NCBI RefSeq assembly: GCF_000337835.1
Contig: NZ_AOLM01000018.1
Coordinates: 1-64,000 of the forward strand
DNA length: 64,000 bases
Direction of reading: 5' to 3'
Origin: Haloferax sulfurifontis ATCC BAA-897
Lineage (GTDB): Archaea; Halobacteriota; Halobacteria; Halobacteriales; Haloferacaceae
Numbering within the stretch: position 1 is the stretch's first letter; each line of letters begins with the position of its first letter. Under the pieces are notes generated by a model. That model was not told the DNA's origin. It searched no databases and was given only the letters and a program-made list of their open reading frames with translations. Positions 5,763-33,686 of this stretch are shown here, in pieces. The translations under genes and the position numbers were made by a program.

Positions 5763-8242
5763 TGCCACTGGCTGAGAGGATTGAAACGGCGACAGAACGC
5801 CTCAACACGACAATCGTGGACCGCCCACGCGCAGTTGTCGTCGTCTTTTTGTTGCTCACGGGCGTGTTCATCGGCGGGTTAGGGTCTGTACAGATGAGCG
5901 CGGGCGGGCTTGACGCGTTCACGGATGACTTACCCGAACAGGCGACCCTCGAAGAGGTCGAACAGAACTTCGAGGAGCCGTTCCAGACAGATGCCCAGAC
6001 GACGACGCAACTCATTCGGACGAACAGCAACGTCCTGACTAAGGAGGCACTCGTCCGTGACGCTCGCCTGCTCGAACGCGTTGCCGAACGCGACGAGTTC
6101 CGGATGGACTCGGCTCGTGGCCCGGCTCCGATCATTGCACAGCATCTCAACCCGTCAGCGACGACGCCGGCAGAGCATCGGCGAACGCTCGAACGTGCGA
6201 CTCCATCCGAAATCAGACAGGCCGTTCGAGAACTCCGAGATGGGTCCCGACTTACCGGAGTAGTGTCAAACGATTTCAATCCGACCAGCGTCTCCGCGTC
6301 TGCATCGATTACGACGATTTCGCACGACTTCCCCGGGAGCTTCGGTGATGACGACCTGACTGCCGTCCAGACGGGCCTTCAAGCGGTCGCTGACGATACG
6401 CCGGGCGACGTTCGTGCGTTCGGGTCAGGGACGACCGAAACAGAGATCTCGCAGTCCGTGCAGGACTCGCTCCTGATTGTGATGCCCGTCGTGATCCTCC
6501 TGTTACTATTCTTCTTGGTGGTCGCATACCGTGACCCCATCGACGTCCTGTTGGGACTGGTCGCGCTCGTGATGACGATCATCTGGACGTTCGGGTTCCT
6601 CGGGTATTCGGGGATTCCGTTCAGCCAGCAGATGATTTCGGTCCCGGTGTTACTGCTTGCGGTCGGCGTCGACTTCGGGATCCACATCATCAACCGCTAC
6701 CGAGAAGAGACGGAACGCGGGTTCGAAGCGGTCGAAGCGATGCGAGAAGCGAACGCCCAGCTCCTGATCGCGTTCGTCATCGTCACCGTGACTGCGGTGT
6801 TCGGATTCGGTGCAAACGTCATCTCCGACCTGACGCCGATTCGGAATTTGGGCATCGCGTCAGCGGTCGGTATCCTGTTCACGTTCTTCATCTTCGGGCT
6901 GTTTCTACCCGCAGCCAAGTTGGTGTGCGATAACGTGCGCACGCGTCTCGGCGTCCCGGAGTTCAACTCGTCTCCGATAGCGTCCGAGGACTCAGCCCTC
7001 GGACGGGTGTTAGCGTTCCCCGCACGAGTGAGCCAGCACGCACCGACGGTAATCGTCTTGGGACTAGTCCTGTCAAGTGTCGCCATGGGCGCGTACGGGG
7101 CCGGCGTCGGCACCTCGTTCGAAAACGAGGACTTCCTCCCGCCCGAGGAGCTCCCAGCCTACGTCACGGGCTTACCTGAACCGTTCGCGCCAGGCGAGTA
7201 TACGATCACGTCAACGATCAACTTGCTCGATGAGAAGTTCGGGAGCAGTCAGGGGAGTACCGTGAAAATATACGCCGAGGGAAACTTCAAGGAAGATCAC
7301 GCGCTCGAAACCCTCGTGGCTCCGAACGACAACCCCCCGGAGTCGTTCGCAGTTGGACCCGGTGGGCAAGCACAGGCACGGAGCATCGTGACCGTCATTC
7401 AATCCCACGCGGATCAAGACGAAGAGTTCGCCGCCTTAGTCGCTCGGAACGACCAGAACGATAACGGGATACCCGACCAGAACCTCGAACGAATTTACGA
7501 CGAACTGTTCGCATCCTCGGCGAGCGGGCGGGCCGAACAGTACCTCACTGAAGACTACCGGTCCGCGCTGGTCGAATATCAGACCGACTCCGATGCCTCA
7601 CAGACAGAGGTGACAACCGGTGGGGACGAGTTGGCAGACACGTTCCAGTTTAAAGCGACGTCCACGGGAGATATCGTCGTCCGCGCGGCGGTGATGGACC
7701 GTATCTTCCAGTCGGCGATTCAGGGACTCGTCCTCGCAGTCGTGCTGACCGCCGCATTCCTCGTGGCGATATACGGAATCCTGGAACGCAAACCGATGCT
7801 CGGCGTGGTTAACGTCTTCCCGATACTGATCGCCATCGCGTTCCTGCTCGGGATGATGCGGTATCTGGACATCACGCTGAACGCATTGACCGCGACGATT
7901 CTCTCCATCTCGGTCGGGGTCGGTATCGCCTATTCGGTACACACGACTCACCGCTTCATCGACGAGTACGACGCGACGACGGGTGCGCACGAAGCGATGA
8001 TGATCACGCTGACCGGAACGGGAGGCGCGTTGTTCGGCAGTATGCTGACGACCGCGCTGGGGACCGGCGCGCTCGCGCTCGCCATCACCCCGATTCTCGG
8101 CAACTTCGGCGTCCTGATCGGCCTGAGCGTCACTTATTCGTTCCTGGCGGCGGTGATCGCACTCCCGCCCGCGATGTTGCTCTGGGAACGGACACAGCAA
8201 TGGGATCTCGATCTATTGGCGCGTCTCCGTCCAGCGATGTAA
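5762..8242 (+). CDS. RND/MMPL-family transporter
   Basis: 826 residues with the duplicated RND plan: a first membrane span near residue 22-42 (AVVVVFLLLTGVFIGG), a large outer loop, then a block of five spans from ~230 (LLIVMPVVILLLLFFLVVAY onward, including VDFGIHIINRYREE, the family's conserved 'GxDxxxHxxxRxxEE'-like segment). The second half repeats this: a span at ~430, an outer loop, then a block from ~640 with GVGIAYSVHTTHRFIDEY. It is likely a proton- or ion-driven exporter of lipids or hydrophobic compounds. Co-transcribed with the COG1361 gene and probably under the divergent TetR repressor. Substrate unknown. Confidence 0.9.
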   Translation: MPLAERIETATERLNTTIVDRPRAVVVVFLLLTGVFIGGLGSVQMSAGGLDAFTDDLPEQATLEEVEQNFEEPFQTDAQTTTQLIRTNSNVLTKEALVRDARLLERVAERDEFRMDSARGPAPIIAQHLNPSATTPAEHRRTLERATPSEIRQAVRELRDGSRLTGVVSNDFNPTSVSASASITTISHDFPGSFGDDDLTAVQTGLQAVADDTPGDVRAFGSGTTETEISQSVQDSLLIVMPVVILLLLFFLVVAYRDPIDVLLGLVALVMTIIWTFGFLGYSGIPFSQQMISVPVLLLAVGVDFGIHIINRYREETERGFEAVEAMREANAQLLIAFVIVTVTAVFGFGANVISDLTPIRNLGIASAVGILFTFFIFGLFLPAAKLVCDNVRTRLGVPEFNSSPIASEDSALGRVLAFPARVSQHAPTVIVLGLVLSSVAMGAYGAGVGTSFENEDFLPPEELPAYVTGLPEPFAPGEYTITSTINLLDEKFGSSQGSTVKIYAEGNFKEDHALETLVAPNDNPPESFAVGPGGQAQARSIVTVIQSHADQDEEFAALVARNDQNDNGIPDQNLERIYDELFASSASGRAEQYLTEDYRSALVEYQTDSDASQTEVTTGGDELADTFQFKATSTGDIVVRAAVMDRIFQSAIQGLVLAVVLTAAFLVAIYGILERKPMLGVVNVFPILIAIAFLLGMMRYLDITLNALTATILSISVGVGIAYSVHTTHRFIDEYDATTGAHEAMMITLTGTGGALFGSMLTTALGTGALALAITPILGNFGVLIGLSVTYSFLAAVIALPPAMLLWERTQQWDLDLLARLRPAM

Positions 8243-8353
8243 GGCGGACGAACGACGATCACAATTTCGCGCCGCTGGTGGCGTGGTCGAGCGTCGGCGC
8301 GCTCGTCGGAATCCTACTGTGATTATTGAGAAACCTAACGCGTTTCCCCCGCT

Positions 8354-9150
8354 GGCACTGTCTAGTTAGTGACCTCCTCGACCGGTGTTCTTCCGTCGAG
8401 CGATTGATGCGTTCGTTGGGGCAAGTAGTATTGTATAAATAAGACAAGATAATCGCAGACGACCGCGTGACTGACCACCGAGGGATCACAGAAGTGTTCG
8501 ACTCGGATTTCACGGGTTTGAAACCACGTTCCGGCGAGGTTTCGCTCAACGTAGTCAAGCCGACCGCTCAATCCTAATCGAGAGATTGCAGTCGGATAAT
8601 CGGAGCCGTCAACGGGGATTACAGCGCCTGAGACCCCGTGTTTCTCAGAGAGCCGATGGAGAAACGCTGCAGCCGGATCAGCACTATTTCGTCCGAACGA
8701 TTCGACGTCAAGAATCGGTTTTGTCTCTATGTTTATTGTAGTAGATATACAAGACTAACCGCCATCGATTTTGGCAGCGGTCTCGTCGACCGCAATCCGT
8801 TTCGGTTTCGTCTCAGGCGGGTTGTGACGACTAACAGCCAGCCGACATGTGAACGTCCAGACGCCTTGGTGAGAGCGTTGAACGCCAAGCAGCCGGAGAA
8901 TCTCTGTTGTTATTTAAGTAAAGTTAGTCGTCCGGAGTTGGGCGTCGAACGCCCTAACGGCGTCCTCAGAACGCTCCGCGTTCTGACGGGCGCACGAGAG
9001 CTTTGCGAGTCTGGGACGTCGCCGTCCACTCACGCGCTCAAATTTCTTCATAACCCGCCGCAAAGCGCTCGCTGAGCCGGTCTGCGGACTTCATCCCGAA
9101 TTAGCTCAACGACCTGCTCGTTCCTCAAACTGACTTAACTAGACAGTGCC
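8354..9150 (-). mobile_element. Decayed IS6-like insertion sequence with intact 15-bp terminal inverted repeats
   Basis: The 797-bp element is bounded by perfect 15-bp inverted repeats GGCACTGTCTAGTTA at 8354-8368 and 9136-9150. The stop codon of the transposase remnant lies inside the left repeat. The remnant resembles the haloarchaeal IS6-type transposases (IVDET..., FLHRL, YLPQRTHQSLDGRTPVEEV). No 8-bp target duplication is visible: flanks are cccccgct and ggctctcg. The right third (about 8920-9135) does not code and holds small inverted repeats such as agaacgctccgcgttct. The element cannot move by itself but its ends could still be used in trans. Confidence 0.75.
8362..8913 (-). pseudogene. 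IS6-family transposase remnant with nonsense codons
   Basis: One continuous frame carries recognisable transposase: ILRLLGVQRSHQGVW, PKRIAVDETAAKIDGG (first catalytic Asp in VDE), then a TAG at 8755-8757 where relatives have Trp, then TKPILDVESFGR, FLHRLSEKHGVSGAVIPVDG (second Asp region), and the C-terminal YLPQRTHQSLDGRTPVEEV. A second stop (TAA, 8914-8916) closes the frame upstream and the N-terminal DNA-binding part is missing. Replacement of the usual Trp by TAG, not by a shift, shows decay by point mutation. Confidence 0.75.
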
Positions 9151-9224
9151 GGCTCTCGGATCGCCGCTAGCTGTGCGTCTCCGCGGCGGCCCGTCGGGTG
9201 CGTCGCCGACCGACTCGAAACGGC

Positions 9225-9872
9225 TCAGTACGACAGCGTCCACTGACGGTCGATGAGCCAGTCGTCCAACTTCCCGAGCGGGTCCTCCTCGACGTGCGTG
9301 CCGTGGCTCACGAGGACCGTCTCGATGTCGTACTCGAACAGTTTGACGAGGTTCCGCTCGGCTTCCTCGTGGCTCAGGTCGTTGAACTGCGCCGCCGGCG
9401 GGACGAGGAACCCCGGCGGGAGGCCGCGGCGGTCCGACCCCTCGACCACGTCGCCGGCGATGAACACGCCGTCGTCCTCCAAGAGCAGGCCGCTGTTTGC
9501 GACCGTGTGGCCCGGGACCTGCACGATTCGAATCCCGCCGTCGAGCACGTCGTCGTGGCGGAAGTGGCGGTCGGCCTCGACGGCGAGCGCGTCGTAGAAC
9601 CCCTTCGCGCCGCCGGGAACGAGCAGTTCGGGGTCGAACGCGTCCAACACGGCGGGGGTCCCGCCGAAGTGTCCCTCGTCGCCGTGGGTGATGACGAGTC
9701 GGTCGACGCCGCCGAACTCCGACTCCAGAATCTCGACTAACTCCTCGCCGTCGTCAGGGAACGCCGCGTCGACCAGCGTGGTCGCGCCGGTCGGTCGGTC
9801 CTCTATGACGAACACGCGGACGTGGTCGAACTGTATCGTGTACACTCCGTCTGCGACTGCGGTCACTGTCAT
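9225..9872 (-). CDS. MBL-fold hydrolase with altered metal motif (paralog of 13324-13971)
   Basis: 215 residues with the metallo-beta-lactamase fold: TTLVDAAF near residue 30, VITHGDEGHFGG at ~60 in place of the usual THxHxDHxGG, PGHTVANSGLLL at ~117 (GHT ligand), IAGDVVEG (bridging Asp) and LVSHGTH near 190 (last His). Two of the standard HxHxDH ligands are changed (His to Asp, Asp to Gly). The same change occurs in the paralog at 13324-13971, so it is a subfamily trait and not damage. Both copies flank the UspA-TctA-TctB genes. The substrate is unknown; glyoxalase II-like thioesters are possible. Confidence 0.8.
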   Translation of the reverse strand: MTVTAVADGVYTIQFDHVRVFVIEDRPTGATTLVDAAFPDDGEELVEILESEFGGVDRLVITHGDEGHFGGTPAVLDAFDPELLVPGGAKGFYDALAVEADRHFRHDDVLDGGIRIVQVPGHTVANSGLLLEDDGVFIAGDVVEGSDRRGLPPGFLVPPAAQFNDLSHEEAERNLVKLFEYDIETVLVSHGTHVEEDPLGKLDDWLIDRQWTLSY

Positions 9873-25797: not shown

Positions 25798-27177
25798 TCA
25801 ACGACTGTCCGGGCCGGCGTCAATCGCGGCGGCGTCAGCGTCGTCGGCGGAGTCGGTATCGTCGGCGTCGTCTGCCAACACGTCGTCGAGTCCCCACTCC
25901 GACGCCCTCGCGCGGGCCTCCTCGCGGGCCTCGGACCGAATCTCCTCGATCGCGTCGGCGTCGGCGAGGAACGATTCGACCGCGCTCTGGTCGCGGCCCT
26001 CCTCGCGGCGGGCGTCGGGGGCGGCGTCGACGGTCTTCGCCGCCAATCGCTCGTCGCCGGCGAGGACGCGGGCCGGCTCGCCCGGCGGGACGCGGAACGC
26101 CTCGACCTCGTGGGCGTCCGCGAGGGCGTCGGCGTCGACGGCGTGGACCGCGGCGCGGGTCGGGCCGGTGACCGCGAACCCCTCCAGCCCGTCGCGGCCG
26201 CCGACCTCGCGCTCCGTGTCGTAGGCGAGGACGGGAACCCCGTCTTCGAAGGTGACGACGCCGCGGGTGGTCTCGCCGAGGAGGAGCGCGTCCTGCGGCT
26301 CGAAGACGACGTAGCCGGTGAGTTCCTCGTCGAGCACCGTCCGAAGCACCGCCGCCGCGTCGTCGACGACGCGCGACCGGCGGAGCTCGCCCCGTGGGAT
26401 TCTCATATCCGCTCGGGGGACGACGGCGCTTTTGAACCGCTCTGCGACCTCGCGGCCGTCGCCGTCGCGCACGTCGAGGCGGGCGGCCGCCTCGCGGAAG
26501 GCGTCCGCGGCCGGGCCGTCGGGCGCGTGTTCGAGGAGGGGCTTGCCCTCGCGGCGGGCCGCGCGGACCGCGTCGCTCTCGGGGACCGACGCGAGCGTCT
26601 GCCCGCCGAAGTAGCGGCCGGCCTGCTCCGCGATTTTGTCGACGTTCTCGTCGGGGCGCACGCGGTTGAACACCACGCCCGCCGTGTCGGTGCCGTAGGA
26701 GTGGGCGTACTCCTGGACTTTCAGCCCGTCGGACAGCGACGGAACGGTGGGTTGGAGGACGACGACGATGCGGTCCGCGAGGACGACGGGGAGCACCGCG
26801 CTCTTCGAGCCGAGCGCGGCGGGCGAATCGAGGAGGAGCACGTCCGTGTCGGCGGCGAGCTCGGCGACCACGTCGCGGAGGCGACCGGGGTCCGCGGCCT
26901 CGAACGCCGCGAGGCTCGTCCCGCAGGGAACGACCGACATGCCGAACCGCTCGTACACCGCGTCGGACACCGCGGCGTCGCGCTCGTCGACGAGTAAGTC
27001 GTGGAGCGTCACGTCGGCGTCGTCCAATCCGGCGTGGAAAAGCAGGTTCGCCATGCCCGTGTCCGCGTCGATGACGGTCACGTCGTAGTCCTCGGCGAGC
27101 GCCATCCCCAGCGCGAGCGTACTCGTCGTCTTCCCGGTGCCGCCCTTCCCGCTGGCGACGGCGAACGCCTCGACCAT
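25798..27177 (-). CDS. minD2: MinD2-like ParA/MinD-family ATPase with long C-terminal extension
   Basis: 459 residues from the ATG at 27177. Deviant Walker A (ASGKGGTGKTTSTLALG), DADTGMANLLFHAGLDD (switch I) and LLLDSPAALGSKSAV (Walker B). The ATPase domain ends near residue 240, after FGGQTLASVPESDAV. About 220 further residues follow, including a predicted mixed domain and a strongly acidic tail. No C-terminal amphipathic membrane helix of bacterial MinD type is seen. In H. volcanii, a homolog in the same context is known to affect motility, chemotaxis-array position and cell shape (from memory). The symbol is assigned by that resemblance. Confidence 0.85.
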   Translation of the reverse strand: MVEAFAVASGKGGTGKTTSTLALGMALAEDYDVTVIDADTGMANLLFHAGLDDADVTLHDLLVDERDAAVSDAVYERFGMSVVPCGTSLAAFEAADPGRLRDVVAELAADTDVLLLDSPAALGSKSAVLPVVLADRIVVVLQPTVPSLSDGLKVQEYAHSYGTDTAGVVFNRVRPDENVDKIAEQAGRYFGGQTLASVPESDAVRAARREGKPLLEHAPDGPAADAFREAAARLDVRDGDGREVAERFKSAVVPRADMRIPRGELRRSRVVDDAAAVLRTVLDEELTGYVVFEPQDALLLGETTRGVVTFEDGVPVLAYDTEREVGGRDGLEGFAVTGPTRAAVHAVDADALADAHEVEAFRVPPGEPARVLAGDERLAAKTVDAAPDARREEGRDQSAVESFLADADAIEEIRSEAREEARARASEWGLDDVLADDADDTDSADDADAAAIDAGPDSR

Positions 27178-27286: not shown

Positions 27287-27409
27287 ATGAGACGGGCACC
27301 GATGCTCCGAATCGTTATCCAATCGTTCGCTTTCGTAGTCGAGGACTCGACGTTCGCGGTGTACGCGACCCTCCTCACCATCGCGTTCGTCGTGTACCTG
27401 AATCGGTGA
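27287..27409 (+). CDS. 40-aa single-span membrane protein beside minD2
   Basis: ATG at 27287 (alternative ATG 27302) to TGA 27407-27409. The product is MRRAPMLRIVIQSFAFVVED then a membrane span (FAVYATLLTIAFVVYLNR). It is too short for common ORF cut-offs, but its start lies ~25 nt after an AT-rich run (aacaaaaattaatatc, 27257-27272) that can be a promoter. It is divergent from minD2. A similar small gene next to minD2 exists in H. volcanii, as I recall; function unknown. Confidence 0.55.
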   Translation: MRRAPMLRIVIQSFAFVVEDSTFAVYATLLTIAFVVYLNR

Positions 27410-27457: not shown

Positions 27458-28471
27458 TCAGACCGCCTCGGCGAGCGCGTCGAGCAGGCGGTCGTTTTCG
27501 TCCGGGCGGCGGACGTTGATTCTGACGTGCGAGTCGAGCCGCCGGTAGTCGCGGGCGTCGCGGACGGCGAAGCCGCGCCGCCGAGTCTCGCGGAGCACGC
27601 GGTCGACGTCGGCGGCGCGGAACAACACGAGCGCGCCGTCGGCGGGGTGCGGGTCGTAGCCGAGCCGGTCCAGTTCCGCGAGTATCCGCGGGCGCTCCCG
27701 TTCGACCCGGTCGCGCGTCGCTTCGAGGAAGTCGTCCTGTTCGAGACAGAAGGTCGCCACCTCCACCGCCGGGGACGAAAGCACCCACGAACAGCGCGCC
27801 CTCGAGAGCCGGTCGCCGAGGTCGCCCGTCGCGGCCGCGAAGCCCGCGCGGAGCGAGGGGACGCCGAAGACATTCGTCACCGAGTGGAGCGCGATGACGC
27901 CGTCGAGGCCGGCCGTGCTCGGGAGGCGCGTGAAGCCGAGGTACGTCTCGTCGACGATGACGGGCGTGTCGGCCCGGCGGCAGTCGTCGATGAACGCCCG
28001 AAGTTCGGCTCTCGGATACGCCGTTCCGAGGGGGTTCGCGGGGTAGCTGAGAATCACCGTCGCGTGCTCGGCGGGGTCGACGCGCTCCAGGAGTCTGTCG
28101 TGCGGCACGTGCACCGGTTCACCGCCTTGGAGCCGGACTTCCCGTGCGTACTCGCCACAGCAGGGGGCCGGAAGCGCCACGCTGTCGCCCGGCGAGACGG
28201 TCACGCCCACCGCGAGTCGGAGCGCTTGGATGACGCCCGCGGCGGGAACGACCTCGTCGGGGTTACAGCCGACGAACGCCGCGGCGGCGACGCGGAACCG
28301 CGAGCAGTCGTCCAGCGAGTCCCGCCGCGCCGTGGAGAGCGCCGACTCGTAGACGCCGGCGAGACCGGACGGTCGCTCCGGGTTCGAGCCGGTGCTGAAA
28401 TCGACGAGCGAGTGGTCGGCGGTCCCGCCGTGGGTCACGTGGTCGACGTCTGAAACGGAACCGGGGTCCAT
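27458..28471 (-). CDS. CobD-like aminotransferase-fold protein lacking the PLP lysine
   Basis: 337 residues, a full-length paralog of the L-threonine-phosphate decarboxylase at 29309-30331 (THGGT, LVDFSTGSNPERP, VVPAAGVIQALRLA, VDETYLGFTRLP, RINVRRPDENDRLL). At the place of the pyridoxal-phosphate lysine (SLTKMFGLPGIRAG in the neighbour) it reads SVTNVFGVPSLRAG: the codon is AAT, Asn. It therefore cannot form the usual internal aldimine. The ORF is otherwise intact. It is the last gene of the cobalamin cluster, 98 bp beyond cbiZ. A regulatory or scaffolding pseudoenzyme, or a recent loss of function, are the options. Confidence 0.8.
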   Translation of the reverse strand: MDPGSVSDVDHVTHGGTADHSLVDFSTGSNPERPSGLAGVYESALSTARRDSLDDCSRFRVAAAAFVGCNPDEVVPAAGVIQALRLAVGVTVSPGDSVALPAPCCGEYAREVRLQGGEPVHVPHDRLLERVDPAEHATVILSYPANPLGTAYPRAELRAFIDDCRRADTPVIVDETYLGFTRLPSTAGLDGVIALHSVTNVFGVPSLRAGFAAATGDLGDRLSRARCSWVLSSPAVEVATFCLEQDDFLEATRDRVERERPRILAELDRLGYDPHPADGALVLFRAADVDRVLRETRRRGFAVRDARDYRRLDSHVRINVRRPDENDRLLDALAEAV

Positions 28472-28569
28472 ACCACCGTGCTAGCAACCGACCGTAATCA
28501 AAGCTTCTGCGGGAACCGTTTAGCTACCACCGAGGATTTCTCGGCCGAGCAGTCGTTTCACCGGAGTTC

Positions 28570-29316
28570 TCAAATCGGAGAGACGGTCGCCCGGTCGTCG
28601 GCGACGACGCCGTAGCGCGCCTCGCCGACGCCCCGCGGAATCGGCTCGGCGTCGTACCGCGAATCGAGGCTCGCGCGCACCGCGTCGCGGACGCAGACCC
28701 GCGCCGCGTTGCCGACCTCGGTGGCGCTCCCCGAGAACGTCACCGGGTCGCCGGCGGGGTCGCACGCGGCCACCACCGCGTCGGTCGTCGTCCCCGGCGC
28801 GCCGCAGTGCGCGAGGAGCGTCGCCGCCTTCGCCTCGGCGGCCACGGCGACGAGGTTCGGGAGCGCGCCCGGTTCGAGCGCCCGCGTCGTCCCGACGAAG
28901 ACGTTGACCGTGCCGACCGGGTCGTCTCGGTCCTTTCGCTCCACTCGGCCGTCGCCGGCCGCCGCGTCCGAGGCTGGCGACGCGTCGCCCCCGCCGCTCG
29001 GGTCGTCGTCTATCGGGAGTTCCGCGGGGTTCGACACGCCCGCGGTGGCGACGACTTCGACCGGGCCGAACCGGGCGCGCCGGGCGTGTTCCTGCCCCAC
29101 GCCCGTCAGGAGCGTCGGTCCGCGCTCGTCGAAGCCGGCCGCCGAGAGCCGTCGCTCGATATACGCGTCAAGGTCGGTCTCGGGCCAGCCCTCGGGGACG
29201 GTGACGTTGAACGCGGCGTCGGCCGGCGACTCGCCGCCGGCGTAGCCCGTCGAGAGCCACCGCGTGTTCGGTCGAACGAGCCGACAGACGCCGTCGCGGC
29301 GCGTCGCCTCAAACAT
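28570..29316 (-). CDS. cbiZ: Adenosylcobinamide amidohydrolase CbiZ
   Basis: 248 residues. CbiZ signatures: RWLSTGYAGGESPADAAFNV, LLTGVGQEHARRARFGPVEV, VATAGVSNPAELP, TVNVFVGTTRALEPGALPN, and AEAKAATLLAHCGAPGTTT with ending TDAVVAACDPAGD. It cleaves adenosylcobinamide to adenosylcobyric acid, the archaeal salvage route. A ~35-residue disordered Gly/Ser/Asp insert lies near residue 105-140. The start overlaps the cobD stop by 8 nt, the seventh gene of the operon. Confidence 0.9.
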   Translation of the reverse strand: MFEATRRDGVCRLVRPNTRWLSTGYAGGESPADAAFNVTVPEGWPETDLDAYIERRLSAAGFDERGPTLLTGVGQEHARRARFGPVEVVATAGVSNPAELPIDDDPSGGGDASPASDAAAGDGRVERKDRDDPVGTVNVFVGTTRALEPGALPNLVAVAAEAKAATLLAHCGAPGTTTDAVVAACDPAGDPVTFSGSATEVGNAARVCVRDAVRASLDSRYDAEPIPRGVGEARYGVVADDRATVSPI

Positions 29317-30331
29317 CGGTGGCGACGGCGGCGAGCGCCCGGAGCAGTTCGTCGTTCTCGTCCGGGCGTTTCACCGCGACGCGGACGTGCGAGTCGAGCG
29401 TCGGAAACGTCGTCGCGTCCCGGACGGCGACGCCGTGGTCGCGGGCGGTCTCGACCACCGCGTCGACGTCGCGGTCGCCGACGTCCACGAGGAGAAACGG
29501 CGCGTCCGACGGGGAGACGTCGAAGGCCTCGGACAGCGTCTCCCGGAGTCGCTCGCGCTCGTCTGTGACGCGCGCTCGGGTGCGCGAGACGAACCCCTCG
29601 TCTCGCATGCAGTGCGCGCCGACGGCGGCCGCGGGCGTCGAGAGCGACCACGCCCGCCGGGCCACGGCGAGTCGGTCGCCGAGGTCGCCCGTCGCGGCCG
29701 CGAAGCCCGCGCGGATGCCCGGCAGACCGAACATCTTCGTCAGCGACCGGGCGACGACGACGCCGGGGTCCCCCGCGAGGCTCGGCTCGTCGGTGAAATC
29801 GAGGAACGCCTCGTCGACGACGAGGACCGTGTCGGCCTCGCGACAGCGCGCCGCGAACGCCCGGAGGTCGGACGCAGGTACGAGTTCGCCCGTCGGGTTG
29901 TTCGGGGTGCAGACGACCGCGACCGCGTGGCCCGCTGGGTCGGCGTCGAGGAGGTCGTCGTGGGCGACCGCCACCGGCTCCGCGCCCTGCAGGCGAATCT
30001 CGCGGTCGTACTCGCCGAAGCTCGGCTCGGGGACGAGCGCGGTGTCACCGGGCGCGAGCGTCACCTCGAACGCGAGTCGCAGGGCTTCGAGGCCGCCGGC
30101 GGTCGGCACGACCGACGCGGGGGCACAGCTGACGTAGTCGCCGGCGGCCGCCCGGAAGTCGGCGTAGTCGTCGTCGGGGTAGCGGGTCGCGGCGTCGAAC
30201 GCCTCCCGATACACGGTTTCGACGCCGTCGGGGCGCTCGGGGTTGGTGTTCGCGCTGAAGTCGAGGACGGTCGGGTCGGTGGTCCCGCCGTGCGGGACGC
30301 GGCTCCCCGCCCGGACGGACTCAGGGTCCAT
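29309..30331 (-). CDS. cobD: L-threonine-O-3-phosphate decarboxylase CobD
   Basis: 340 residues of the class I/II aminotransferase fold. Seen: THGGTTDPTVLDFSANTNPE, VVPTAGGLEALRLAFEV, CTPNNPTGELVPA, LVVDEAFLDFTDEPS, and the PLP lysine in RSLTKMFGLPGIRAGFA. It makes (R)-1-amino-2-propanol phosphate for CbiB. The gene overlaps cobT by 11 nt and cbiZ by 8 nt. The paralog at 27458-28471 lacks the lysine. Confidence 0.9.
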   Translation of the reverse strand: MDPESVRAGSRVPHGGTTDPTVLDFSANTNPERPDGVETVYREAFDAATRYPDDDYADFRAAAGDYVSCAPASVVPTAGGLEALRLAFEVTLAPGDTALVPEPSFGEYDREIRLQGAEPVAVAHDDLLDADPAGHAVAVVCTPNNPTGELVPASDLRAFAARCREADTVLVVDEAFLDFTDEPSLAGDPGVVVARSLTKMFGLPGIRAGFAAATGDLGDRLAVARRAWSLSTPAAAVGAHCMRDEGFVSRTRARVTDERERLRETLSEAFDVSPSDAPFLLVDVGDRDVDAVVETARDHGVAVRDATTFPTLDSHVRVAVKRPDENDELLRALAAVATDV

Positions 30332-31361
30332 CGTCGATATCGGCGTCAGCGCCGCCGGCGTCGGCCGCCGCGGTCCCGGTCTCGACCGCTTCGGGGTCCA
30401 GCGTCGAGAGCACGTCGAGCGTGGCCGCCTCCACGTCGTCGAGGACGCCCATCCGGTCGGCGAGCATGAGCGCGCCGCCCATGCCCGCGCCCTCCTTGGC
30501 CTCGCCCGCGTCGTAGCGGTCCAGCGGGTGCGTCTCGAAGCCGGGGTCGGTGACGGTCAGTTCGAGGTCGAACGCCTCGGCGGCGTCGGCCAACTCGGGC
30601 ACGTCCTCGGCGAGGTACGAGGTGGTGGCGAGCGTCAGGCCGCCGTTCGCGCCGGCGTGTCGGGCGAGCGCGGCGGCCGCGAGCAGTTGCGTCCCGCCGC
30701 CGAGTATCACGTCGATGCCGTTTTCGAGCGCGCCGACGGTGAGGCCGGCGACGACCGGAAGCACCGGGTCGCCGAGGTAGCGGGCGGCGCGCCGGGGCTT
30801 GTGAGCCGCGAAGCCGGGTTCGACGTCGCTGGCCTCGAACGCCTCCGCGACGACCTCCTCTTTCAGGCTCGTCGGGTTGTCTGGGAGCGACGACGAGACG
30901 GGGAACTCCTCGCCGAGCGCGCGGAACACGGCGAGCGCGGTGGTCGTCCCGCCGGGGACGGTCTCGCCGATGACGAGTTCGTCCTCGGGGAGCGCGAGGC
31001 CCATCCGCCGGGCCGCCTCGAACGCGCCGGGGGCGGTCGGGACCGGCTCGCTCTCGCGGATGTCGCGGCCGGGGCGCGCGCCCACGTCGATGGTCGGCGC
31101 GGCGCTCGGCTTGGCGAGGCCGGCGTCCACGGTGAGCACGTCGAAGCCGGTGAGTTGCTTGACGGCGCGGGTGACGGCCGCGGGCGTCGGACAGCCCGTC
31201 GGACTGACCGGCGTCACCGGCGAGCGGACGGGCTCGCCGTACTCGATGATTTCGGCGTCGGCGCTCGGGGTATGGCCGACGAGCGACGGGTCCGCGCCGG
31301 CGGCGCTGATGCCGGGAATCTTCGCCGTCTCGGTCGTGCCGGCGACGAGGACTACTCGCAT
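30321..31361 (-). CDS. cobT: CobT-family nicotinate-nucleotide--dimethylbenzimidazole phosphoribosyltransferase (archaeal type)
   Basis: 346 residues. Archaeal-type features: AGTTETAKIPGISAAGADPS, SPVTPVSPTGCPTPAAVTRA, ELVIGETVPGGTTTALAVFR, LGDPVLPVVAGLTVGALENG, VILGGGTQLLAAAALA and AGEAKEGAGMGGALMLA. It should make alpha-ribazole phosphate or an equivalent nucleotide for the lower ligand of cobalamin. It overlaps cobY by 10 nt and cobD by 11 nt. Confidence 0.88.
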   Translation of the reverse strand: MRVVLVAGTTETAKIPGISAAGADPSLVGHTPSADAEIIEYGEPVRSPVTPVSPTGCPTPAAVTRAVKQLTGFDVLTVDAGLAKPSAAPTIDVGARPGRDIRESEPVPTAPGAFEAARRMGLALPEDELVIGETVPGGTTTALAVFRALGEEFPVSSSLPDNPTSLKEEVVAEAFEASDVEPGFAAHKPRRAARYLGDPVLPVVAGLTVGALENGIDVILGGGTQLLAAAALARHAGANGGLTLATTSYLAEDVPELADAAEAFDLELTVTDPGFETHPLDRYDAGEAKEGAGMGGALMLADRMGVLDDVEAATLDVLSTLDPEAVETGTAAADAGGADADIDDGP

Positions 31362-32038
31362 CGGTCCTCCGCGAGCGCGATGTCTGTCGGACGGTTCACG
31401 TTGAGTGCGAGTCGGGTATCTGTGGAGAGGTACATGGTCGGGTGAGTGTCAGTGTCGCTGTCGGTGTCAGTGTCGCTGTCGGTGTCAGTGTCTGTGCCGG
31501 AGTCCGTGTCGCTGTCGGTTCCGGCCGTCGTCTCGGCGTCGGTGTCGGCTGTCGAGTCCGCGGTCGCGGGGCCGACGACGCCCAGTCCGGTCGGGCAGAC
31601 GGCGGTCCCCTCGTGGTCGAAGACGAGCGCGTCGTCTATGCTGGCTCCGAGGTCGCGCTTCAGTTCGACGGGGACGCACGCGGTGGCGGCCCCGCCGTCG
31701 GCGGCCGAAACGACCGCGTCGACGTGTTCGGGAGCGACGAGCGGCAGGTCGGAAACGACGGTGACGACCGGCCGGGAGACGCGGTCCAGCGCGAAGTCGA
31801 GGTCGGAGACGTAGCCGTCGCCGGGGGCCTCGATGGGGTCGAGACCGAGGTCGGCGGCTCGCTCGCGGGTGTTCGGCGTGTGCGGCGAGGTGACCGCACG
31901 GACGGTCTCGACCGACGAGTCGCGGAGCGCCGCGGCGACCCGGTCGAGCATGGGCCGCCCGCAGATTTCCACGAGCGGCTTTTCGACCGGCGCGTCGAGG
32001 CGGGTGCCGCGGCCGCCGCACATCACGAGAGCGTCCAC
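31352..32038 (-). CDS. cobY: Adenosylcobinamide-phosphate guanylyltransferase CobY with a Thr/Asp repeat insert
   Basis: 228 residues from the GTG at 32038 (VDALVMCGGRGTRLDAPVEK, the NTP-transferase G-loop). It continues PLVEICGRPMLDRVAAALRD, VVTVVSDLPLVAPEHVDAVV and, at the C-terminus, YLSTDTRLALNVNRPTDIAL. CobY adds GMP to adenosylcobinamide phosphate. Between residues ~160 and ~200 lies a hydrophilic insert of alternating Asp with Thr/Ser, encoded by 18-bp tandem repeats at 31446-31517, which relatives lack as far as I recall. It overlaps cobS by 16 nt and cobT by 10 nt. Confidence 0.88.
   Translation of the reverse strand: MDALVMCGGRGTRLDAPVEKPLVEICGRPMLDRVAAALRDSSVETVRAVTSPHTPNTRERAADLGLDPIEAPGDGYVSDLDFALDRVSRPVVTVVSDLPLVAPEHVDAVVSAADGGAATACVPVELKRDLGASIDDALVFDHEGTAVCPTGLGVVGPATADSTADTDAETTAGTDSDTDSGTDTDTDSDTDTDSDTDTHPTMYLSTDTRLALNVNRPTDIALAEDRCE
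31446..31517. repeat. Four tandem 18-bp units inside cobY
   Basis: Unit gtgtcagtgtcgctgtcg occurs twice exactly (31446-31463, 31464-31481), then two altered copies to 31517. On the coding strand each gives the hexapeptide DSDTDT. The unit length is a multiple of three, so copy changes keep the frame: a likely length-variable site. Confidence 0.8.
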
Positions 32039-32787
32039 GTCACCACCCCCACGTGGACGGCCGCGGCGCGGGCCAGTTCGTTCGTCGCGCCGAGCAGGTC
32101 GCCCGAGACGCCGCCGAGTCGGGCGCGCCCCCACGAGCGGACGAGGAGCGCGACGACCGGCCCACAGCAGAGCGCCGCGACGACGGCGGGGCCGCCGGTG
32201 ACCGGCGCGAGCGCGACGACCGGGAGACAGGCCACGGCGACCGCGAGGAGCCCCGACGGGCTGTTCTCGCCGACGAGCGCCGAGCCGAGTCCCTCGTGGG
32301 CGGGCGCGCCGAGACAGACCAGCGTCGCCATGCCGGCTTTCGCGCCGACCTCGGCGGCGAGGGCGATTGCGACGGCGGCCGTGAGGCCGACGCGACCCCC
32401 CGCGCCCGCGAGGCCGAACGCGCCGAGCGCGAGGACGACGAGCGTCAGCCCGAACGCGAGCAGGCCGCCGACCCCCGTCTGCGAGTCTTTCAGGACCGAC
32501 AGCCGGCGGTCGGCGTCGCCGTGGACAACCGCGGCGTCGCCGAGGTCCGCGAGGCCGTCGGCGTGGGTGACGCCCGTCACGAGATACAGCGTCACGAGGT
32601 ACAGCGCGGCCGCGGTCGGTATGGGCAGGGGAAGCAACAACGGGAGCGCGGCCAGCGCGCCGACGACGTAGCCGGCGAGCGGAAACGCCACGGGCGCGCG
32701 CCTGAAGGCGTCCCAGTTGGACTCGTCGCCGCCGACCGGGAGGCGGGTGAGAAAGCCGAGCGCGCCGCGGAGCGCGGTCAGAACCAC
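32023..32787 (-). CDS. cobS: Cobalamin synthase CobS (adenosylcobinamide-GDP ribazoletransferase)
   Basis: 254 residues with about 6-7 membrane spans. CobS signatures: ALGFLTRLPVGGDESNWDAF, FPLAGYVVGALAALPLLLP, TGVTHADGLADLGDA (Asp motif HxDGLxD), and VLKDSQTGVGGLLAFGL. It joins adenosylcobinamide-GDP with alpha-ribazole in the membrane. It overlaps cbiB by 10 nt and cobY by 16 nt. Confidence 0.92.
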   Translation of the reverse strand: MVLTALRGALGFLTRLPVGGDESNWDAFRRAPVAFPLAGYVVGALAALPLLLPLPIPTAAALYLVTLYLVTGVTHADGLADLGDAAVVHGDADRRLSVLKDSQTGVGGLLAFGLTLVVLALGAFGLAGAGGRVGLTAAVAIALAAEVGAKAGMATLVCLGAPAHEGLGSALVGENSPSGLLAVAVACLPVVALAPVTGGPAVVAALCCGPVVALLVRSWGRARLGGVSGDLLGATNELARAAAVHVGVVTWTLS

Positions 32788-33686
32788 GCCGCCACCCCCG
32801 CGACGGCGAACGCGAGGAGGCCGGCCCGCGAGACGAGTCGGACGCCCCGCGCGGCGGTCGCCGCGTCGGGTGCCTCCGGCCCCCCGTCAAGCAGGTAGTG
32901 ACCGGGCTTTTCGAGTCGCGTCTCAAGGAGGACCGCGAGCGTCGCCATCGGCCACCCCGAGTTGGGCGACGACGGGCGGCGCGCCAACTCGCCGACTCGC
33001 GTCACCGTGGCCGGCGCACCCGCGACGACGGCCAGTAAGACCGCCGAGACGCGCGCCGGGACCCACATCACCGCGTCGTCGAGGCGGGCCGGAACGCGGC
33101 CGACCGGCTTGTGTCGGTAACCGAGCATCGAATCGAGCGTGTTGACGCCCTTCACCCACGCGGCCGCGCCGACCGCGAGCGCGAGCGAGACGGGCGCGAG
33201 GAGCGCAAACGCGAGCAACGGCGCGACGAGGCCGTCGGCGAGGTTCTCCGCGGCGCTCTCGACGGCGGCGCTCCGGATGTCGGCCGCCGAGAGCGACGAC
33301 GGGTCGCGCCCGGCCAGCGCCCGGAGTTCGTACCGGGCCGCGTCGAGGTCTGACTCATCGGCGGTCGCCGAGACGACCGCCTCGGCGGCGTCGAGGAGCA
33401 TCCGAAGGCTGGTGGTCGAAAACAGCGCGAGGGCGGCGACGGCCGCGCCGAGCCACGGCGAGGCGAGCGTCGCGGCCCACGTCGCACCCGCGGCGACGCC
33501 CGCGGCGAGCGCCGGAAGCGCGACCGCGGCGACCCCGCCGACCAGCGTCGGACGGGACCACTCGCGGTCGACGGGCGAGACGAGTCGGCCGAACAGCGCG
33601 ACCGGGTGGATACGTGCTGGGGGTTCGGCGAAGCCCTTGTCCAGCGCCGCGGCGGCGACGACGGCGGCCGCGGCGGTCACGGGCAC
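32778..33686 (-). CDS. cbiB: Adenosylcobinamide-phosphate synthase CbiB
   Basis: 302 residues, membrane-bound. Signatures: FAEPPARIHPVALFGRLVSP near the N-terminus, ALAGRDPSSLSAADIRSAAV then ESAAENLADGLVAPLLAFAL (the VESxAENxxD motif), GVNTLDSMLGYRHKP and RLDDAVMWVPARVSAVLLAV. It attaches aminopropanol phosphate to adenosylcobyric acid. Start and stop overlap the neighbouring genes by 10 nt each. Confidence 0.92.
   Translation of the reverse strand: MPVTAAAAVVAAAALDKGFAEPPARIHPVALFGRLVSPVDREWSRPTLVGGVAAVALPALAAGVAAGATWAATLASPWLGAAVAALALFSTTSLRMLLDAAEAVVSATADESDLDAARYELRALAGRDPSSLSAADIRSAAVESAAENLADGLVAPLLAFALLAPVSLALAVGAAAWVKGVNTLDSMLGYRHKPVGRVPARLDDAVMWVPARVSAVLLAVVAGAPATVTRVGELARRPSSPNSGWPMATLAVLLETRLEKPGHYLLDGGPEAPDAATAARGVRLVSRAGLLAFAVAGVAAWF

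Follow-up and report, generated by a model that had tools for sequence, protein, structure and literature searches.

What purpose does a second CobD serve in a cobalamin gene cluster if it lacks the lysine that should hold its cofactor? The question is raised by the window (the whole stretch of 64,000 nucleotides of Haloferax sulfurifontis DNA that was analysed), in which two cobD genes lie close together on the minus strand. CobD is the L-threonine-O-3-phosphate decarboxylase (EC 4.1.1.81), represented by the Salmonella structures PDB 1LC5, 1LC7, 1LC8 and 1LKC and by the profile TIGR01140. The lysine that forms the internal aldimine with pyridoxal phosphate (PLP) in CobD sits in the motif S-x-T-K. 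The first gene, cobD1 (29309..30331), is of catalytic type: its product reaches 300 bits with TIGR01140, above the cutoff of 290.55, and possesses all PLP-site residues. The second, cobD2 (27458..28471), is an ORF of 337 codons that starts with ATG and contains no internal stop, in agreement with the full-length product described in the initial annotation. The two proteins are 51% identical across 336 amino acids. In their alignment, SVTNVFGVPSLRAG of CobD2 stands against SLTKMFGLPGIRAG of CobD1, so that Asn200 of CobD2 (SVTNVFG; codon AAT at 27872..27874, minus strand) occupies the place of the Schiff-base Lys199 of CobD1 (SLTKMFG; codon at 29735..29737, minus strand). The replacement of the PLP lysine by asparagine, which the initial annotation had reported from this single genome, is thus real at the level of the sequence.

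The replacement is also a stable property of the genus. A homologue search across the family, comprising 170 genomes, found close relatives of CobD2 (75-98% identity) in all 15 Haloferax genomes (denitrificans, marisrubri, massiliensis, prahovense, gibbonsii, marinum, larsenii, elongans, mucosum, profundi and others) and none outside Haloferax. All 15 have asparagine at position 200, encoded by AAC in 13 of them and by AAT in two, while lysine is present there in all 69 Lys-type CobDs sampled (the Lys-less set being kept apart). Another lysine can not take over its role, because CobD2 of the window contains none at all; the same is true for CobD2 of H. denitrificans and H. massiliensis, and the alignment of the 15 Haloferax sequences has no invariant lysine at any position. 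It follows that CobD2 is unable to form the PLP internal aldimine and is neither a threonine phosphate decarboxylase nor any other Lys-dependent PLP enzyme.

In other respects CobD2 still resembles a CobD. It matches the Pfam family Aminotran_1_2 (E 2.9e-28), as CobD1 does, and homology extends over the full length of the protein. Its score with the curated CobD model is 198.9 bits, below the equivalog cutoff, and that with TIGR01141 is lower still (127 bits), which sets it apart from HisC, the histidinol-phosphate aminotransferase of the same superfamily and close fold, as does the absence of the lysine. The AlphaFold model is of high confidence (pLDDT 91.8, pTM 0.90), and its top match in the PDB is Salmonella CobD 1LKC with a TM score of 0.86, so the CobD/aminotransferase fold is predicted to be retained.

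What remains of the active site can be read from the genus alignment (residue numbers are those of CobD2; roles are presumed from homology and from what is generally known of fold-type-I PLP enzymes rather than from measured coordinates). Besides K200N, the pocket has suffered the changes N28G, G80V/A, F105C/S and N145A/S. Position 105, where CobD has the phenylalanine that we take to stack on the PLP ring, holds Cys or Ser in every one of the 15 sequences. The NNPTG loop is partly lost, with Ala or Ser at 145 and Asp or His at 146 in three species, and F177 has become Gln in two Haloferax CobD2s. Tyr51, presumably the residue lent across the dimer to the PLP site of the partner subunit in the CobD family, is Asp in the CobD2s of three genomes, that of the window among them, and thus in the window's own species clade. 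Invariant across the 15 CobD2s are Asp174, Ser197, Arg208, Arg304, His315 and Arg317, and these include the presumed aspartate to the pyridine nitrogen, the Ser/Arg contacts to the PLP phosphate and the C-terminal substrate arginine (D174, S197, R208, R304, R317). Judged by these residues, the pocket has lost its aldimine side and retains the side that binds anions. Every one of the PLP-site residues listed here is present in Haloferax CobD1.

Selection acts on cobD2 as it does on its catalytic neighbor. Median dN/dS (NG86, species pairs) is 0.18 for cobD2, 0.19 for cobD1, 0.27 for cbiZ and 0.16 for cobT, which indicates that cobD2 is held by the same purifying selection as cobD1. Upstream of the gene, about 25-35 nt before the ATG, an element AGAAG..TTGA(T/A)TA is conserved in 15 of 15 intergenic regions (AGAAG..TTGATTA/TTGAATA; in the window at 28493..28508, minus strand). 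It is probably a core promoter of cobD2 itself. The part of the initial annotation that called CobD2 a pseudoenzyme can be upheld in this sense: the protein is full length, selected, and incapable of the aldimine, hence a pseudoenzyme as far as the parent reaction is concerned. As a separate observation, 23 nt are missing after the Lys motif in cobD1 of H. massiliensis (G031), which shifts the frame (L040, around 4678-4674, seen also in L077). As the sequence stands, the only intact CobD of this genome is the Lys-less CobD2; the frameshift is either a real mutation or an assembly error.

Loss of the lysine is not confined to Haloferax. Three further CobDs without lysine at the PLP site were present among those sampled across the order, and two more were recovered by codon-level pattern searches of 392 haloarchaeal genomes. 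These patterns demand Gly, or Ser written AGY, after Pro, a requirement that excludes Haloferax itself and perhaps further genomes. Four non-Haloferax matches to the first Asn pattern (G179, G082, G434, G193) were discarded as chance, out-of-frame or belonging to another protein. The five sequences have Thr (G172, G022), Ala (G447) or Asn (G348, G176) in place of lysine; all are full-length matches without internal stops, and all score below the TIGR01140 cutoff. Two of the genomes, G172 and G447, harbor an additional Lys-type CobD elsewhere, together with its cob cluster. In the other three, G348 and G022 (both 99% complete) and G176 (81%), neither another CobD nor CbiB (PF03186) was found, and G348 has no CobS either. 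In G022, the Lys-less cobD comes immediately after the gene that normally stands before cbiB, an arrangement that would result from removal of cbiB, cobS and cobY.

Do all these proteins descend from one Lys-less ancestor? In maximum-likelihood trees, Haloferax CobD2 forms a single clade (support 100/100) on a long stem (0.75-0.83), nested among the CobDs of its own family. G022 belongs to the same family and branches elsewhere, G176 falls with another family, and the three Lys-less sequences of family f4 lie near one another and may share one origin. When all Lys-less CobDs are forced into a single clade, lnL drops by 41 (p-AU 0.026), which disfavours one ancient Lys-less clade. The topology thus suggests that lysine was probably lost several times independently, with support that is only moderate because of long branches. 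Further, we compared the six Lys-less lineages at 90 positions that are at least 95% conserved in the 69 Lys-type CobDs. All six retain 46 of these positions, and only K200 and N28 are lost in every one; A27 and A176 are lost in five lineages, and C142, F177 and T199 in four. Divergence from the nearest Lys-type CobD amounts to 14-29% at conserved positions versus 45-58% at the rest (Fisher p from 1e-4 to 4e-11). For the five lineages known from one genome each, such constraint alone does not prove present function, since part of it predates the loss of lysine. Some of them may be no more than recent remnants of a pathway that has disappeared.

Duplicated cobD genes that keep their lysine occur as well. 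In G153, from a Halorubrum-like genus (g21), a tandem cobD pair is located at 7405-8403 and 8520-9518 of locus L052. The duplicate retains the lysine and shows CobD2-like changes (PTAGEY, AGVV, DETFLGF); it may represent an early step in a divergence like that of CobD2. On account of TAGEY and DETFLGF we considered it (L037/L052) as a Lys-retaining ortholog of CobD2, which is excluded by its grouping with the tandem copy from its own genome. In G224, two cob clusters (L152 and L153) each contain a Lys-type cobD.

We suggest, as the somewhat more probable explanation, that CobD2 is a duplicate dating from the Haloferax stem, dead with respect to the aldimine and selected for a non-catalytic role of its fold and anion pocket that derives from an older PLP-independent role of CobD. 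In this scenario, cobD would have been duplicated on or near the Haloferax stem; cobD2 would then have lost the internal aldimine, and purifying selection would have preserved a non-catalytic job that uses the CobD fold and the intact anionic pocket (all six invariant residues named above). The likeliest candidates for such a job would be binding of a phosphorylated metabolite (threonine phosphate, aminopropanol phosphate, or free PLP/PMP), of a protein partner, or of both. The most economical and best unifying assumption would give haloarchaeal CobD a PLP-independent second role from the outset; both CobD2, beside a working CobD1, and the sole Lys-less CobDs of some B12-negative haloarchaea would then have kept only this one. 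The recurrence of Lys-less CobDs, their presence as sole CobDs in genomes without CbiB and the shared loss of K200 and N28 suggest a PLP-independent function of this kind. We extend this only tentatively to a function independent of both PLP and B12, for which specialists (Haloferax CobD2, G172, G447, G348, G022 and G176) would have evolved repeatedly, with parallel loss of K200 and N28, and would have persisted even where CbiB, and in G348 CobS as well, has disappeared. Haloferax cobD2 still resides within the B12 cluster, and by its location a B12-linked role would fit equally well. Should the B12-independent role prove true, CobD would be a moonlighting protein whose second role could be studied in isolation in the Lys-less genomes. 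Such proteins present a tractable case of recurrent change from enzyme to pseudoenzyme.

The initial annotation had pointed out that pseudoenzyme paralogs often regulate or scaffold the active enzyme. In the present case, CobD2 would enter a hetero-oligomer with CobD1 as its non-catalytic subunit and would activate, stabilise or tune CobD1, as in the pair LCB1/LCB2. We regard this as possible, albeit rather doubtful. The two genes share a cluster in 15 of 15 genomes and the model of CobD2 predicts a retained CobD fold. LCB1/SPTLC1 of serine palmitoyltransferase offers a precedent (PMC3794620): like CobD2, it is a Lys-less paralog of fold type I retained beside a catalytic one. LCB1 is an obligate heterodimer partner, whereas Lys-less CobDs are also found in genomes that lack a catalytic one. 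In another family, a dead paralog is reported to act as activator, in trypanosomatid DHS (PMC3663545). On the other hand, CobD1 has a complete PLP site and looks self-sufficient, most other haloarchaea manage with a single CobD and no such partner, and Asp in place of Tyr51 in the clade of the window argues against CobD2 completing an active site of CobD1. Because Lys-less CobDs persist in genomes with neither another CobD nor CbiB, there are alternatives to a pure partner role, which perhaps did not come first; taken alone, such a role agrees with the shared operon, but not with the sole Lys-less CobDs, the complete site of CobD1 or the change at Tyr51.

A changed chemistry, in which CobD2 would be a different, aldimine-free catalyst, for example the missing L-threonine kinase (EC 2.7.1.177) or an enzyme using PLP non-covalently, seems improbable to us. 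The kinase step is an open gap in the Haloferax pathway (PMC8305020) and the pocket for a phosphorylated substrate is largely retained. Yet Pfam and TIGR profile searches revealed neither a kinase motif nor an extra domain in CobD2, catalytic-pocket residues are lost and vary between species (N146D/H, F177Q), and haloarchaea generally have one Lys-type CobD and no CobD2, which makes CobD2 an unlikely candidate for the missing kinase. Still less can be said for a decaying duplicate or pseudogene: several active-site residues are indeed lost, but a frame intact in 15 genomes, together with the identities, the dN/dS and the upstream element given above, contradicts relaxed selection. A sequencing or assembly error, a strain-specific mutation or the takeover by another lysine deserves practically no credence, as the asparagine is constant in 15 independent genomes though its codon varies, and CobD2 of the window is free of lysine.

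The same gene is known from the model archaeon H. volcanii as HVO_0593, which we equate with cobD2 by its neighborhood and by its 51% identity to HVO_0591, the CobD1 of that species. It is listed there with the isofunctional flag 'yes' and with no experimentally characterised homologue (PMC8305020). Based on the active sites of the 15 Haloferax relatives, the listing as an isofunctional decarboxylase is very probably wrong, and the assignment should be corrected for a protein that presumably has no catalytic lysine. Supplements aside, we found no mention of the missing lysine in the literature; the gene was already known, while its pseudoenzyme status and the recurrence of the change appear to be new.

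Finally, the surroundings of cobD2 deserve a comment. Reading along the minus strand, the cluster comprises cbiB (32778..33686; Pfam CobD_Cbib, E 2.3e-67), cobS (32023..32787; Pfam CobS, E 4.7e-40), a cobY-like nucleotidyltransferase gene (31352..32020; recognised by its ORF and synteny and named after HVO_0589, PMC8305020), a cobT-like gene (30321..31361; above the cutoff of NF003371, below that of TIGR00303 (CobT) with E 2e-62), cobD1, cbiZ for adenosylcobinamide amidohydrolase (28570..29316; Pfam CbiZ, E 3.4e-41) and cobD2. The order cobT-cobD1-cbiZ-cobD2 is identical in all 15 Haloferax genomes. The next gene on the same strand is minD2 (25798..27174; TIGR01969, E 9.1e-56, and synteny), a homologue of HVO_0595; it follows cobD2 in 14 of the 15 genomes (the stretch examined in G028 does not include it) and the Lys-less cobD in G447. 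In the latter genome, that gene (Ala type, locus L150, 7591-8634) lies directly upstream of minD2 (8762 onward) and near ftsZ2; no other cob genes were found in this stretch, and the cob cluster is on a separate contig. A locus from another haloarchaeal family (L086) has the order ftsZ2, a HAD-like gene, cbiB, cobS, cobY, cobD, cbiZ and minD2, so that its B12 genes are flanked on both sides by genes of cell division and shape. We did not adopt a functional link to MinD2, because in Haloferax and G447 the Lys-less cobD and minD2 seem to have stayed neighbors since an ancestral ftsZ2-cob-minD2 locus of this kind, and at 1e-40 no match to minD2 exists in G348 or G172. The gap between cobD2 and minD2 contains, on the plus strand of the window, an ORF of 40 codons (27287-27409) with a hydrophobic stretch, which may encode a small membrane protein or be due to chance.
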